DNA from: a virus
DNA length: 36,502 bases
Strand: one strand, 5' to 3'
IMG/VR virus record: IMGVR_UViG_3300031749_000018
Span: 1-36,502 of that record
Part shown: piece after piece, positions 24,516-32,505 of the stretch
Layout of the letters: each line of letters starts with the position of its first letter
How positions within the stretch are numbered: position 1 is the stretch's first letter
The notes under the pieces: generated by a model
The model's database searches: none
The model's input: only the letters and a program-made list of their open reading frames with translations
Told to the model about the DNA's origin: nothing
Translations under genes and position numbers: made by a program

Positions 24516-24543
24516 GGTATTCCAATACCTAATTACCTAATTA
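24516..24543. promoter_or_regulatory. Operator-like palindrome plus tandem CCTAATTA repeats
   Basis: GGTATT-CC-AATACC (24516-24529) is a perfect inverted repeat. It merges into two exact head-to-tail copies of CCTAATTA (24528-24535 and 24536-24543). This AT-rich patch stands out in GC-rich surroundings and lies upstream of the late genes, so it may bind a regulator such as the XRE protein. The function is inferred. Confidence 0.45.
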
Positions 24544-24594
24544 TCCCCTTCTACCAGCACCTGATTACCTTCGCCGCCGCCGCCACTGCCGATT

Positions 24595-25947
24595 ATGTCC
24601 CAACCGTAGTGTAAGGTTGGGCGACTCCCGGGCGTATGTTAGGCCGCAACGAGCTCCCTGTCAAGAATCACCGGCGCTGCCGGGCTGACGCACTCGGGTT
24701 CATCCAGGGCGGCTTTCAGCATCCACAGGTCCCGGTGTCCCACGATCTTGCGGAAGCGCTTCTCCGTCTCCAGCGCGGCGGCCCCGGCCCAGCGCAGCGC
24801 CATCTCCCCATCTCGCCAGCGGGTGACTCGTCCGGTCCGCCTTCCTACCCCCGACAGTAGGCTCTCGATCACATTGGTGGTGGCCAGGCATCTCCGCAGC
24901 CTCGGGGAGAGGCCCAGCCGGTTGATGGTGAAAGTCTCCTCCAGTCCCTCCCGCAGGCTGGCCGCCGCCTGGGGGTGAGATCGCTCCAGCCACTCCGCCT
25001 GCTTGCGCAGCCTGGCCATCCCTTCTTCTGGCTGCAAGCGCCATGCTGCCCGCATCGCCGCCGCCACCTGGGCCTGCATGTCCTTGGGCAGATACCCCAG
25101 CACATTGCGCCGCTTGTGCGCCAGACACCGCTGCACCGGGTTTTCCCTGCCATAGACCGCGTCAATCGCTTTGCGCAGCGCCTTGGAGCCATCAATCACA
25201 AACAGCCGCCGGCGGCCAGGTTTGACGCCCCTCTCCATCAGGTCCTCCAGCAGCCCCTTCACCACCACCGCGTTTTCCGTCGCCCCCTCAGACAGCCCCA
25301 GGACGTGCTTGCGCCCCTCGGTGTCCACTCCTACCGCGCTCACCACCTGGTGGCCCCCGAAGTCCTGGCCGTCAATGTAGATCACCAGCAAGTCCAGCTC
25401 ATCGAAGCGCCGCTCGCACAGCGCCCTCAAGGCGGCGGCGCTCGCTTCCTGGAACTGGCGACTCACCGCGTTCTTGGAGACTCCGCAGCGGTCCGCATTG
25501 CGGCATACGCCGGGATCGGCACTTCCGCCCCCTGTCCCCCGCCTCTCCTGCGCAGTCGGGGCTTGCACACCCGCACCTTCTGGCCCCCCAGCGCCACCAC
25601 CCCGCCTTGCTGCCCATGGCGCCGGATCGCACCCCCGGCTCGCCCTGGATGGGGCGGCCCCGCCACCTGCTCCGCCGACACCAACAGCACCGCCTCCAAC
25701 GCCGCCCGGCCCAGGTCCCGCACCAACCCCTCCACCGCCAGACGCCCCTGCTCGATCAACTCCACCATCGGCTGGAGCGCCTGCCCGTGCTGGGCCAGAA
25801 ACTGGCCTAGCCTCTCACTGTCCTTCTTGCTCGCAATCTGATACTCTCTTCTCACGGCGGTTCTCTCCTTTCTAGTGATTTGGTTGCCCGATTCTACCAG
25901 AACCGGGCGGAGAGAGCCGCCTCAACCTTCAACTATGAATGGGACAT
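24595..25947. mobile_element. Decayed IS256-family insertion sequence
   Basis: The element is bounded by imperfect terminal inverted repeats. The left end reads ATGTCCCAACC from 24595 inward and the right end, on the minus strand, reads ATGTCCCATTC from 25947 inward. Inward similarity continues with TAGT, AAGGTTG and CG-CTC blocks, over about 33 bases. Inside is a broken mutator-type transposase on the minus strand. No exact target duplication is certain, although both flanks contain CACTGCCG. Length is about 1.35 kb, a little short for the family, which agrees with an internal deletion. Confidence 0.8.
24639..25855 (-). pseudogene. IS256/mutator-family transposase, frameshifted and internally deleted
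   Basis: The N-terminal part (ATG 25855, MRREYQIASKKDSERL through GGQKVRVCKPRLRR to VPIPAYAAMRT) and the C-terminal part (from about 25500, CGVSKNAVSRQF through DELDLLVIYIDG, RRLFVIDGSKALR, CLATTNVIES and RVTRWRDGEM) lie in different frames. The mutator-type catalytic Asp residues are visible in YIDG and VIDG, and a later Glu in NVIES. Family members normally have some 35-40 residues between AYAAM and the GVSKNAVSR segment, including a conserved helical ST-RxY motif. Here they are missing and the frame shifts at the joint, near 25490-25500. The element should therefore be immobile on its own. Confidence 0.85.
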
Positions 25948-26039
25948 CCTCGCCACCACTGCCGCGCGGCCCCCCGAAAAACCCTGCCCTTGGCGGCCGC
26001 CCGCTACAAAAAAAATAAAAAAAAATTTTGCAAGGGGGC

Positions 26040-26544: not shown

Positions 26545-26925
26545 ATGGATCTGTTGCAGCTGATCGAGTCGTTCGACTTGGATGCGATCCCCGTGATCGC
26601 AAAGGGTGAGGAGAACCTGCTGGGGAGCGCCGTAGTTCAGGCCGCGGCCGCGATTCGGCCGCGAATCCATGCGTTGGCCCTCGCGCTGCTCCGGGGGCTG
26701 GCCGCCAAGGGGGGTACGGAGGGGGCCGGCGCGGTGGCGGAGGCCATGAACGAGCGCAGCCTGTTCATGGCGACGGGCATTGGGGCGCTCCTGCTCGTCT
26801 ATGGCTGCAGGTTCACCCTGCACGCGCTCGGACTTGGGGCCACCGATATCCCGGTGGGACCCGCACCGCATGGAGATCGTGGGCCATGGTGGCCACAACA
26901 CCGAAGAGACTGCCGCAACCACTGA
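26545..26925 (+). CDS. Small protein with one membrane segment, unknown
   Basis: The product has 126 residues from ATG 26545 with GGAGAGGAGGACAGGG upstream. The N-terminal two thirds are helical and alanine-rich (RPRIHALALALLRGLAAK). One hydrophobic segment at about 83-103 (MATGIGALLLVYGCRFTLHA) may cross the membrane. The last 40 bases overlap the integrase start in another frame, and the C-terminus (WWPQHRRDCRNH) is encoded there. No family is recognised. It is not a standard integrase N-terminal domain. Confidence 0.65.
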   Translation: MDLLQLIESFDLDAIPVIAKGEENLLGSAVVQAAAAIRPRIHALALALLRGLAAKGGTEGAGAVAEAMNERSLFMATGIGALLLVYGCRFTLHALGLGATDIPVGPAPHGDRGPWWPQHRRDCRNH

Positions 26926-27497
26926 CCAGAGACGAGGTGCGGACGCTGTTCGCCGCCCTGCCTCGCCAGGGAGCGGTTGCGGCCCGGAACCGCGCCCTCC
27001 TGGCCCTGATGTATCGGGCCGGGCTGCGCGTGAGCGAGGTCTGCCGTCTGCGGCTGTCGGACCTCGATGCCGCCTCGCTCGCCTTGCACATCCGCAAGGG
27101 GAAGGGCGGCCGGGACCGAACCGTGTACCCTGACCTAGAGGCGTGGCGGATCCTCGGGAACTGGCTCGCCGCTCACCCTGGCGGCGAGTGGCTGTTCCCG
27201 CTGCTGCGGGCCACGCCGTGGCGGCCCAGCCTGGACAGCGATCGCCACGTGACGCCCCGGTACGTCGAGGCGCTCGTGGCCAAGCTGGCGCGGCGGGCCG
27301 GGATCCGCAAGAGGGTGACGCCCCACACCCTCCGGCACACCTTCGCGACCGAGGCCGTGAGCGAGGGAATCCCGCTCCATCAGGTGCAGCGGGACCTCGG
27401 CCACGCGCACCTCGCTACCACCGCCATCTACCTGCACGTGGCGGACAGCGAGAGAGAGGCCCGGGCCAGGACGCGCGCACCGGCCGGCATCGCCTAG
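26886..27497 (+). CDS. int: Minimal tyrosine recombinase (integrase), catalytic domain only
   Basis: The product has 203 residues from ATG 26886. The complete active site is visible: Arg48 (AGLRVSEV), Lys73 (KGKGGRDR), His147 and Arg150 (HTLRH), His173 (LGH) and Tyr182 (AIYLHV). Typical phage integrases have 300-400 residues with an arm-binding and a SAM-like core-binding domain. Here only about 15 residues precede the catalytic domain, and all residues needed for strand exchange are kept. The stop TAG shares the CTAG palindrome with the stop of the opposing methyltransferase gene. It probably integrates the phage, with help in DNA binding from elsewhere. Confidence 0.9.
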   Translation: MVATTPKRLPQPLTRDEVRTLFAALPRQGAVAARNRALLALMYRAGLRVSEVCRLRLSDLDAASLALHIRKGKGGRDRTVYPDLEAWRILGNWLAAHPGGEWLFPLLRATPWRPSLDSDRHVTPRYVEALVAKLARRAGIRKRVTPHTLRHTFATEAVSEGIPLHQVQRDLGHAHLATTAIYLHVADSEREARARTRAPAGIA

Positions 27498-28009
27498 TCG
27501 CTGGGGCAGGGGTGCAGCGCACGGGTCAGGGAGACCTGGCTCGTGCGCTCGCGTATCAGGGGGACATACTCCTCAGCCAGCTCGATGCCGATCCACCAGC
27601 GCCCCAGCTCCTCGGCGACCATGAGGGTGGTTCCGGTCCCGGCAAACGGATCGAGGACAATGGCCGGGCGCGTGGGCCATCCCTCCAGCGCCTCGGGCGG
27701 CCACCTGTCGGGCTCGACCTTGCCGGCGCCGCCGCGCGTGTCGCGCCCCACGGCCGTCGGCTCCAGCTCGAAGGCCCCGCGCCAGGCGCCGCAGCGTGAG
27801 CAGAAGGCGTCCCGGCGCTCGCCGCCCGGCGCGGCCCAGACGTGGTCGCATCCGTGGTCGCCGCCATCCAGGGGCGGCCAGACCACCTCCTGCTCGCCCG
27901 CGTAGCGCCGCAGTGACCAGTACGGCGGCGAGGTGACCGCGCACTGGACGCTCTCCGGCTCCAGCCGGCGCAGCATATCTACGCAGTGGCCAACGAGTAG
28001 CTCCCTCAT
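27494..28009 (-). CDS. DNA N4/N6-methyltransferase with large internal deletion
   Basis: The product has 171 residues. The ATG at 28009 is preferred for the CAGGAG site. Motif IV TSPPYW (26-31) and, after it, the AdoMet motif DPFAGTGTT (120-128) show a beta-class amino-methyltransferase. The segment CDHVW and FCSRCGAWRG, ending in ELEPT, matches the zinc-containing insert of common phage enzymes. In those, about 200 residues follow, with the remaining fold and target recognition (phrases such as GTLWLNLGD). Here ELEPT joins almost directly to the C-terminal AdoMet part. The frame is intact, so it is either a decayed gene or a stripped-down enzyme. Confidence 0.8.
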   Translation of the reverse strand: MRELLVGHCVDMLRRLEPESVQCAVTSPPYWSLRRYAGEQEVVWPPLDGGDHGCDHVWAAPGGERRDAFCSRCGAWRGAFELEPTAVGRDTRGGAGKVEPDRWPPEALEGWPTRPAIVLDPFAGTGTTLMVAEELGRWWIGIELAEEYVPLIRERTSQVSLTRALHPCPSD

Positions 28010-28086
28010 CTGCTCCTGCCAAACTCCCAAACGATCCGGGCCGTCGCCTCCGGGTCGTCATACCTGACGCGCCAGAGGGCGGTCGC

Positions 28087-28463
28087 GGTTCGCACGGACC
28101 TGACGGGCCTCACAGATCCAGTGGCTCGCACTAAGCTTCCGGTCCTCACGCATCCGGTGGCTCGCACTGCCATTCCGGGCCCCACGGAGACTGCGGCTCG
28201 CATGGTCCGTCCGGGCCTCATTCGCGGTGTGGCTCGCAGACAAGCCAGGCTCGCCCCGGGCCTCAACACATGAACGGCTCGCATCGGCAGCCTGGGCCTC
28301 ACTGTTCTCACGGCTCGCACTCACCTTTCGGGCTTCTGGGGTGCGGTGGCTCGCATGCAACTGCGGGTCACAAAGCCGGAGCGGCTCGCAAGTTTGCAAT
28401 GGGTCTCATCCCAGGCGCGGCTCACAAGTGCAGCACGGGCATCATGTAACGCCTGGCTCGCCG
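28087..28463 (-). repeat. TIGR-type guide RNA array: alternating 9-base repeats with 9-base spacers
   Basis: Read on the minus strand, repeat R1 (NTGCGAGCC) and repeat R2 (NTGAGGCCC) alternate, each followed by 9 variable bases, so the period is 36. There are eleven R1 copies (plus-strand starts 28087, 28123, 28159, 28195, 28231, 28276, 28312, 28348, 28383, 28419, 28455) and ten R2 copies (28105, 28141, 28177, 28213, 28258, 28294, 28330, 28365, 28401, 28437). One spacer has 8 bases and one interval has 18. Spacers are all different. The array begins two bases after the stop of the IS110/Nop5-like gene. This matches tandem interspaced guide RNA arrays, whose 36-nt RNAs carry two 9-nt guides. 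The open frames across it are by-products of the period. Confidence 0.87.
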
Positions 28464-28464
28464 C

Positions 28465-29217
28465 TCACCTCTCGATCACCGGGATGACGCCGGTGTGGCC
28501 CAGCACCTCGATCACGTACGGCAGGCGCGTCGGCAGGCCGGCCAGCTCGCGGCCCCGCTGCCAGTAGTGCGCGAGGAATACCTTGGCCACCTTCCGGCGG
28601 GCCATGCTGTCGATGTGCCCGTCCGAGAAGCGCAGCAGCGGCGTCCCGTCCCGCTTCAGCCGGGGCGGGTCCCACGGCATCGGCTCGGGGTGCAGACGCC
28701 GCAGCCGCTCCTTTTCGCCGACATAGAGCTGCCGGTACCCGTCACCGCAGCGCACAAAGCTCTCCGCCGCCTTCCAGGCCAGCACGCGCAACCGCGGGTT
28801 CCAGTTCGCTTTCTGGCCCCGCTGCCGCCTAGGGGCCAGGCCGTCGACGGTGTGCAGGCCGGCGTAGGCCCACAGCTTGGAGACGGTGTCAAACCGTGAT
28901 AGGTCTGCGGCCCAGGCGAACAGGCCGCCGGCGATGCAGGGGCCGACTCCCTTCACGTCCTTCAGCCACAGATCCCAGAGCGGCTGGCCCCTTATGCGCT
29001 GCTTCACCATGGCCCGCAGCTCGGCCTCCTGGCGCGCCAGGCGCTCATCCATCCAGTCCTGAAGGGCTTTGGCCTTGTCTGCGTCAAGGCCTTGGCGCTC
29101 CACGGCCGCCCGAATGCGGTTCTCGCACTCCAGGCGCATCTGCTGCACATCGTAGTACGCCTCCACGAGGACGCGCAGCTCTGTGCGGTCCAGAGGCGCT
29201 GGCGCTGCCTTTCTCAT
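28465..29217 (-). CDS. tas: Tas-like protein (IS110 C-terminal/Nop5-like), nuclease-free
   Basis: The product has 250 residues from ATG 29217, overlapping the previous stop (ATGA). Residues 10-75 form a long helical or coiled region. Residues 84-158 (WLKDVKGVGPCIAGGLFAW, then LSRFDTVSKLWAYAGL, then NPRLRVLAWKAAESFVR) are the helix-hairpin-helix Transposase_20 domain of IS110-family enzymes, related to the Nop domain of box C/D RNA proteins. The C-terminal part (MARRKVAKVFLAHYWQRG, YVIEVLGHTG) is the standard ending of a phage-borne group. The N-terminal DEDD/RuvC catalytic domain of IS110 is absent and no HNH is present. With the adjacent array this fits a TasA-type, RNA-guided DNA-binding protein rather than a transposase. 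Confidence 0.85.
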   Translation of the reverse strand: MRKAAPAPLDRTELRVLVEAYYDVQQMRLECENRIRAAVERQGLDADKAKALQDWMDERLARQEAELRAMVKQRIRGQPLWDLWLKDVKGVGPCIAGGLFAWAADLSRFDTVSKLWAYAGLHTVDGLAPRRQRGQKANWNPRLRVLAWKAAESFVRCGDGYRQLYVGEKERLRRLHPEPMPWDPPRLKRDGTPLLRFSDGHIDSMARRKVAKVFLAHYWQRGRELAGLPTRLPYVIEVLGHTGVIPVIER

Positions 29218-32171: not shown

Positions 32172-32185
32172 GCCTCAGCCCCCTG

Positions 32186-32287
32186 GACATATGCAGTGCA
32201 GCCGTGCACTGCATACGTCGCGGCGCGTGATGCGGAGCCCGGACCGGCCCCGGGACCTGTGAAGTGCAGCCGTGCACTGCACAGGTC
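32186..32287. repeat. Twin 34-base palindromes with identical cores
   Basis: Two inverted repeats share AGTGCA-gccg-TGCACT. The first has arms 32186-32200 and 32205-32219 (one mismatch in 15). The second has arms 32254-32268 and 32273-32287 (one mismatch in 15). Their centres are 68 bases apart. The core is kept while the outer arms differ but stay self-complementary, which means structure or dyad binding is selected. They lie between the AT-rich part and the next gene. Confidence 0.8.
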
Positions 32288-32309
32288 GGACATGTGGTGC
32301 AGGACCCGT

Positions 32310-32505
32310 CGTATTAATGTATGTATGAAGTAGTAGTGTATGTATATATGCACACGTTGCACGAGTGCACAAGTCCGCCGGGACACGTGCAATGCACATG
32401 TCCTGCACATGTCTGCATACGTCTTGCACATGTGCAGTGCACATATCCCGGATGTGTGCATTGCACACGTTCTGCACACGTTGCACACGTCGCGCACATG
32501 GGTAT
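32310..32505. other. Origin-like region: AT-rich stretch plus TGCACAYGT iterons
   Basis: After the primase-helicase stop comes a cluster of TGCACAYGT-type 9-mers. Full or one-mismatch copies start at 32349, 32393, 32404, 32414, 32425, 32438, 32462, 32473 and 32482, with degenerate copies at 32358, 32366 and 32493, many spaced 9-11 bases (one helix turn). Next to them, 32310-32350 is an almost pure A/T/G stretch (TATTAATGTATGTATG, GTATGTATATATG), an unwinding element in a GC-rich genome. Iterons plus AT-rich DNA plus palindromes beside the primase-helicase are the classic layout of a replication origin. No initiator gene of a known family is seen. Confidence 0.72.

Follow-up and report, generated by a model that had tools for sequence, protein, structure and literature searches.

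The DNA analysed here, called the window, is the whole of the IMG/VR virus record IMGVR_UViG_3300031749_000018 (36,502 nucleotides, nt). On its minus strand lies a gene, tasA, directly followed by an array of short alternating repeats, and we find that the two very probably form a dual-repeat TIGR-TasA system with an RNA-guided DNA-binding mechanism. The record is phage-like, carrying genes for a terminase, a head-tail adaptor/portal, a major head protein and a primase-helicase, and very probably comes from a tailed phage; the first-pass annotation had already called the locus phage-borne. The locus itself appears to belong to a known type, the dual-repeat TIGR-TasA of Faure et al. (2025, PMC12045711); the new part is a set of candidate natural targets for the guides of this and related arrays, several of them in phage head genes.

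The first-pass annotation had described a nuclease-free, Nop-like gene at this position, and it had the coordinates right. In profile searches covering the Tas, Nop5 and IS110 families, the gene product passes the curated NCBIfam Tas model NF052498 (TIGR_Tas_endo; 195 bits, cutoff 100) and fails the IS110 family model (36 bits, cutoff 140). A Pfam scan gave no Nop match at E<=1, box C/D partner proteins not being among the things searched for. When the sequence was compared with the PDB using phmmer, TasR (9mty, E 8.5e-37) and TasH (E 2.9e-20) were the only significant matches, and the alignment to TasR begins only at TasR residue 134. An AlphaFold model (pLDDT 84.4) likewise retrieved TasR first in Foldseek (5e-12), followed by TasH (1e-10) and IS621 (3e-4). 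Neither RuvC nor HNH is matched in the profile scans, and the N-terminal DEDD domain of IS110 is absent from the Pfam scan. Because the product has no nuclease domain, it is assigned to the TasA subtype, and the word 'endonuclease' in the NCBIfam name does not fit it. Standard annotation was expected to call the gene an IS110 transposase; Pfam (Transposase_20, 5e-7) and PHROG ('transposase') indeed do so, but the expectation is outdated, as the current NCBIfam already names the Tas family.

TasR is thus the best match in both sequence and fold, although the window protein is without TasR's RuvC nuclease domain. The second-best match, TasH of Salicola phage CGphi29 (9w04, 21kl), is likewise phage-borne; the window protein is 31.5% identical to it and has no HNH domain. 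IS110/IS621 bridge-RNA recombinases share the RNA-binding (Nop-like) fold and the Transposase_20 match, whereas the window locus has no DEDD/RuvC catalytic domain and a guide array rather than a single bridge RNA. For Nop5, a box C/D ribonucleoprotein component, Faure et al. (PMC12045711) propose common Nop-domain ancestry with these proteins, but the match of the window model to its fold (1nt2) is not significant (E 2.7).

TIGR-Tas arrays consist of two alternating 8-12-nt repeats with spacers of about 9 nt. In the window, the array starts two bases past the tasA stop codon, on the same strand, and alternates an edge repeat, TGCGAGCC(A/G), with a loop repeat, TGAGGCCC(G/A), each followed by 9 nt. 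The two alternating 9-base repeats and the ten units had been recognized before, but the earlier phase (NTGCGAGCC) was one base off, and the 36-base format called exact is not perfectly regular: 18 of the 20 spacers are 9 nt long (the others 8 nt in unit 3 and 18 nt in unit 6), repeat-to-repeat spacing is 18 nt in all but two places, and the predicted guide RNAs (tigRNAs) measure 36 nt in eight of the ten units and 35 and 45 nt in the other two. Edge repeats carry G and CC (11/11), C or T at position 3 and G at position 6 in 10/11, and every loop repeat carries G and CC (10/10). Box D (UG) and box C (CC...) are present in both, with an extra pair in the edge. The first edge is truncated, and the last is complete yet decayed (TGCGAACC). 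All eight copies of TGCGAGCC in the window fall within the array, and identity at a lag of 36 is 0.53 there; 355 other stretches of 377 nt average 0.325 and do not exceed 0.437.

A solo Nop-type Tas protein, alternating 9-nt repeats and 9-nt spacers, UG and CC boxes, an array adjoining tas and carriage by a phage are all shared with the dual-repeat TIGR-TasA systems of Faure et al. (PMC12045711). The window differs from them in its two irregular units, a box C ending in A or G, a loop box D that is often only NG, a terminator that was not found, and its candidate head-gene targets. The TIGR-Tas identity suggested in the first-pass annotation is upheld by the curated Tas model, by the fold and by the published dual-repeat format.

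Part of the refuting condition named in the first-pass annotation was that relatives of the gene would never carry such arrays; in fact they do. A colinear virus (G001), mostly 87-93% identical to the window in nucleotide sequence, has a TasA 92% identical and an array (L002) with identical repeats and mostly different spacers. Clear resemblance is limited to two spacer pairs, with 16/18 letters (window unit 5, L002 unit 3) and 13/18 letters (the last units) in common, where 0.018 pairs with at least 13 matches would be expected under the null. Two further relatives (L003, 63%; L004, 38%) have arrays directly after tas, with TGCGAGCCA edges and different loops. Arrays of relatives begin with a truncated edge (AGCC) and have a clear end at TGCG, after which the sequences diverge; from these ends we infer that the edge is cut between TGCG and AGCC, which would yield 36-nt RNAs as published.

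The association of array and gene was assessed by scanning viral and prokaryote collections with the repeat pattern alone. Among the 26 stretches recovered, arrays with variable spacers occur in 14, of which 12 (L002 and L003 included) also contain a tas gene; the other 12 have repeats of a 9-base-pair (bp) type and no tas. These results indicate that the array and the tas gene belong together. A single-query Tas scan of GTDB genomes confirmed nothing, and it was the array-pattern scan that succeeded instead.

These comparisons also bear on whether the locus might be a decayed IS110 transposase beside a coding minisatellite, with no TIGR system at all, a reading that would account for the Transposase_20 and PHROG labels and for the long open frames spanning the array. 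We regard it as highly improbable. The protein lies far under the IS110 cutoff and far over that of the Tas model, the PDB sequence and fold matches to TasR and TasH contradict it, and the gene is intact and conserved, at 92%, in the colinear virus. True coding minisatellites were caught by the same pattern, without tas. Moreover, the third-position GC signal seen in the phage's other genes is missing from the open frames that cross the array, and most spacers are replaced in the colinear relative, so the array frames are not conserved proteins.

Several observations were made on relatives and look-alikes. The 9-bp-type repeats (TGCGAGCCG, TGGCTGCCG and similar) of L022, L025, L030-L033, L035-L037 and L039-L041 are without tas; such TIGR-mimicking repeats sit in Elusimicrobia, Myxococcales and other genomes and are a pitfall for array searches. 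The arrays of L016 (start 6645, minus strand) and L026 (start 3776, plus strand) have one whole unit in common and also share a spacer A (CATTGACGG) that is paired with differing spacers B, which suggests an exchange of whole and half units. Gp70 of Mycobacterium phage Euphoria, annotated as hypothetical or as a transposase, is distantly related to Tas and occurs in 76 mycobacteriophage records; the 335-nt gap upstream of it (L006, 2648-2982) folds into strong stem-loops (z -4.5) and is a candidate stem-loop TIGR array.

Under the published rules, the predicted target strand consists of spacer A, 0-2 bases and the reverse complement of spacer B; the A-then-B order is inferred from 8-nt 3' overhangs, and TasR tolerates a 1-bp gap in its target. 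The opposite geometry, reverse complement of B followed by A, gave zero exact matches. L016 and L026, related arrays whose Tas proteins are 57% identical to that of the window, have a common guide pair (GGCAACACC/TTCCAGCGT); IMG/VR contains seven exact matches to the target predicted from it, six of them at gap 0. Five of these six fall on one and the same set of codons (VT-GNTTLE-G) in major capsid genes of the Phage_capsid_3 type, in contigs whose DNA is about 65-78% similar except for two that are identical, and the sixth falls in another capsid-like gene, with a weak SU10_MCP match. The contigs bearing this guide have no such capsid gene of their own, and for a second L016 guide no exact match occurs in the contigs with the capsid hits.

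For the window itself, a search of 2.9 million viral contigs with guide 7 gave two exactly matching sites, in a Mu-type portal gene and a Mu gpT major head gene; at either site the two halves lie 1 bp apart (candidate site CACCGCGAACTGGTCCGTC). These unrelated Mu-like head genes (gpT, L109 7938-7956; portal, L108 2029-2047) share a 19-mer that encodes TDQFAV in the same frame, with 22/23 bases identical around it. A guide of L038, a contig of an archaeal metagenome-assembled genome, has a gap-0 match in another TIGR virus (G003), on the conserved KGIG codons of that virus's tas gene. Thus, although the first-pass annotation had called the targets unknown, the paired-spacer search now provides candidates in other viruses. 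The own genome provides none: on the nearly complete genome of the window virus and on the sister virus, the best matches of the window guides have three mismatches, equal to those of re-paired guides.

A number of results weigh against this interpretation. Guide 5 in exact searches, and guides 5 and 10 in degenerate ones, found no convincing target in IMG/VR, only few or unrelated, chance-like sites; nine window guides compared with INPHARED by blastn gave nothing convincing; and the guides as a set show no coding phase in a codon-phase coherence test. At the assumed size of this large collection, chance alone should give each guide a few exact 18-mer matches, both matches of guide 7 require the 1-bp gap, and the L038 guide also matches a near-identical group of marine viruses, a chance-like cluster. 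As to expression of the locus, a simple consensus scan found no terminator after the array, nor was a sigma-70-type promoter found. A permutation test is unbiased only for the L038-G003 match; with the capsid contigs it becomes circular, as they had been retrieved with the same guide. Head genes, however, hold all gap-0 matches of the capsid guide and both matches of window guide 7, whereas none of 7 sites of degenerate non-guide patterns lies in a head gene (as judged from the spanning frames), which makes chance a less likely explanation. Since the numbers are small and the capsids homologous, the matches to phage head genes are suggestive, rather than proof, of natural targets.

Other Tas proteins show Tas-dependent processing, a dimer bound to one tigRNA, pairing of each spacer with one DNA strand and a strong DNA bend. 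By analogy, tasA and the array would be transcribed jointly from the minus strand, and cutting within each edge repeat would release ten tigRNAs with the layout AGCCR-spacer A-loop-spacer B-TGCG. A TasA dimer is expected to grip one tigRNA through its two UG...CC box pairs and to open an 18-bp DNA site, where spacer A would pair with one strand and spacer B with the other. Without a nuclease, TasA may hold and bend the site, thereby blocking transcription or replication. The purpose could be competition with other viruses, in that a co-infecting virus would have one of its genes stably blocked, because the guides spare the own genome, turn over fast and match conserved head genes of other phages, in relatives and perhaps in the window. 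We consider the case for a blocking action with rival phages as targets to be about evenly balanced. Slightly more tentative is the fuller proposal that phage-borne TIGR-TasA guides are virus-virus weapons, directed against conserved parts of the coding sequence of rivals' head genes (major capsid, portal) and against their tas genes, and silencing them by RNA-guided binding without cutting.

The absence of a nuclease would also suit a programmable repressor of host promoters and genes or of phage genes, serving lysogeny or host takeover. The integrase gene in the record makes a lysogenic life possible, and the guide searches were made on viral sequences. We think such a role unlikely, as no window guide outperforms re-paired guides on the own or sister genome, a fixed regulatory circuit would not be expected to change its spacers between close relatives as these arrays do, and the targets that were found sit in other viruses. 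Faure et al. (PMC12045711) suggested for TasA an RNA-guided aid to integration or segregation, in which bent sites help the phage integrase or partition. The strong bending by TasR and an integrase gene about 1 kb from the locus are in keeping with this, but an attachment-site aid would need a single constant guide rather than a changing set of ten, and no ParB-like partner occurs among the scanned neighbours; we judge it quite improbable. Competition between viruses remains our preferred reading.

Table 1 Features of the window and their positions.
Feature	Position	Strand	Remarks
tasA	28465..29217	-	250 aa, nuclease-free Tas (Nop-type) protein; NCBIfam, PDB and Foldseek matches
TIGR array	28086..28462	-	11 edge and 10 loop repeats in strict alternation, ten units
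First edge repeat	28454..28462	-	5'-truncated (GGCGAGCCA); two bases after tasA stop
Unit 3, irregular	28356..28372	-	loop TGTGACCCG, 8-nt second spacer (28372->28355)
Unit 6, irregular	28239..28256	-	18-nt interval GGGCGAGCCTGGCTTGTC with decayed edge-like GGCGAGCC within
Last edge repeat	28086..28094	-	TGCGAACCG; only its TGCG required
Predicted tigRNA 5	28280..28315	-	16/18 spacer letters equal to sister-array unit 3
Predicted tigRNA 7	28199..28234	-	A CACCGCGAA, B GACGGACCA; two Mu-like head genes matched exactly at gap 1
Predicted tigRNA 10 (last)	28091..28126	-	13/18 letters equal to last unit of sister array
IS256-family element	24537-26018		transposase split over two frames
Integrase gene	26886-27497
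DNA methyltransferase gene	27494-28030		just past the array
Tandem repeats	32172-32504		non-coding, before primase-helicase gene

Some neighbouring features differ between the window and G001. The IS256-family element is missing from the same place in that colinear virus, and the methyltransferase gene has seemingly lost about 490 bp of its middle relative to G001, its family match being confined to the two ends. The imperfect 11-24-bp tandem repeats of the TGCACATGTCC type are possibly an origin or another element. A 20-nt repeat at the G001 ends was considered as a terminal repeat and rejected, as it does not extend. No tRNA for host assignment was found in the window virus, and relatives of its IS256 element and terminase indicate no single host.

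When TIGR systems were described in 2025, it was without known natural targets, a spacer source or a clear role for the nuclease-free TasA, and genuine spacer targets are reported to be difficult to identify (PMC12045711). No report of natural TIGR targets was found in the literature within our search scope, which excluded preprints and many journals. If true, the targets proposed here would be the first natural ones for TIGR systems, and the matches between guides and head genes supply concrete 18-bp sites for testing. Spacer turnover can be studied directly, since the colinear sister virus has the same repeats and mostly other spacers, and the Euphoria-type mycobacteriophages offer a candidate array in phages with a tractable host. 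If confirmed, these findings would mean that viruses bear a programmable, non-cutting silencing system against one another.
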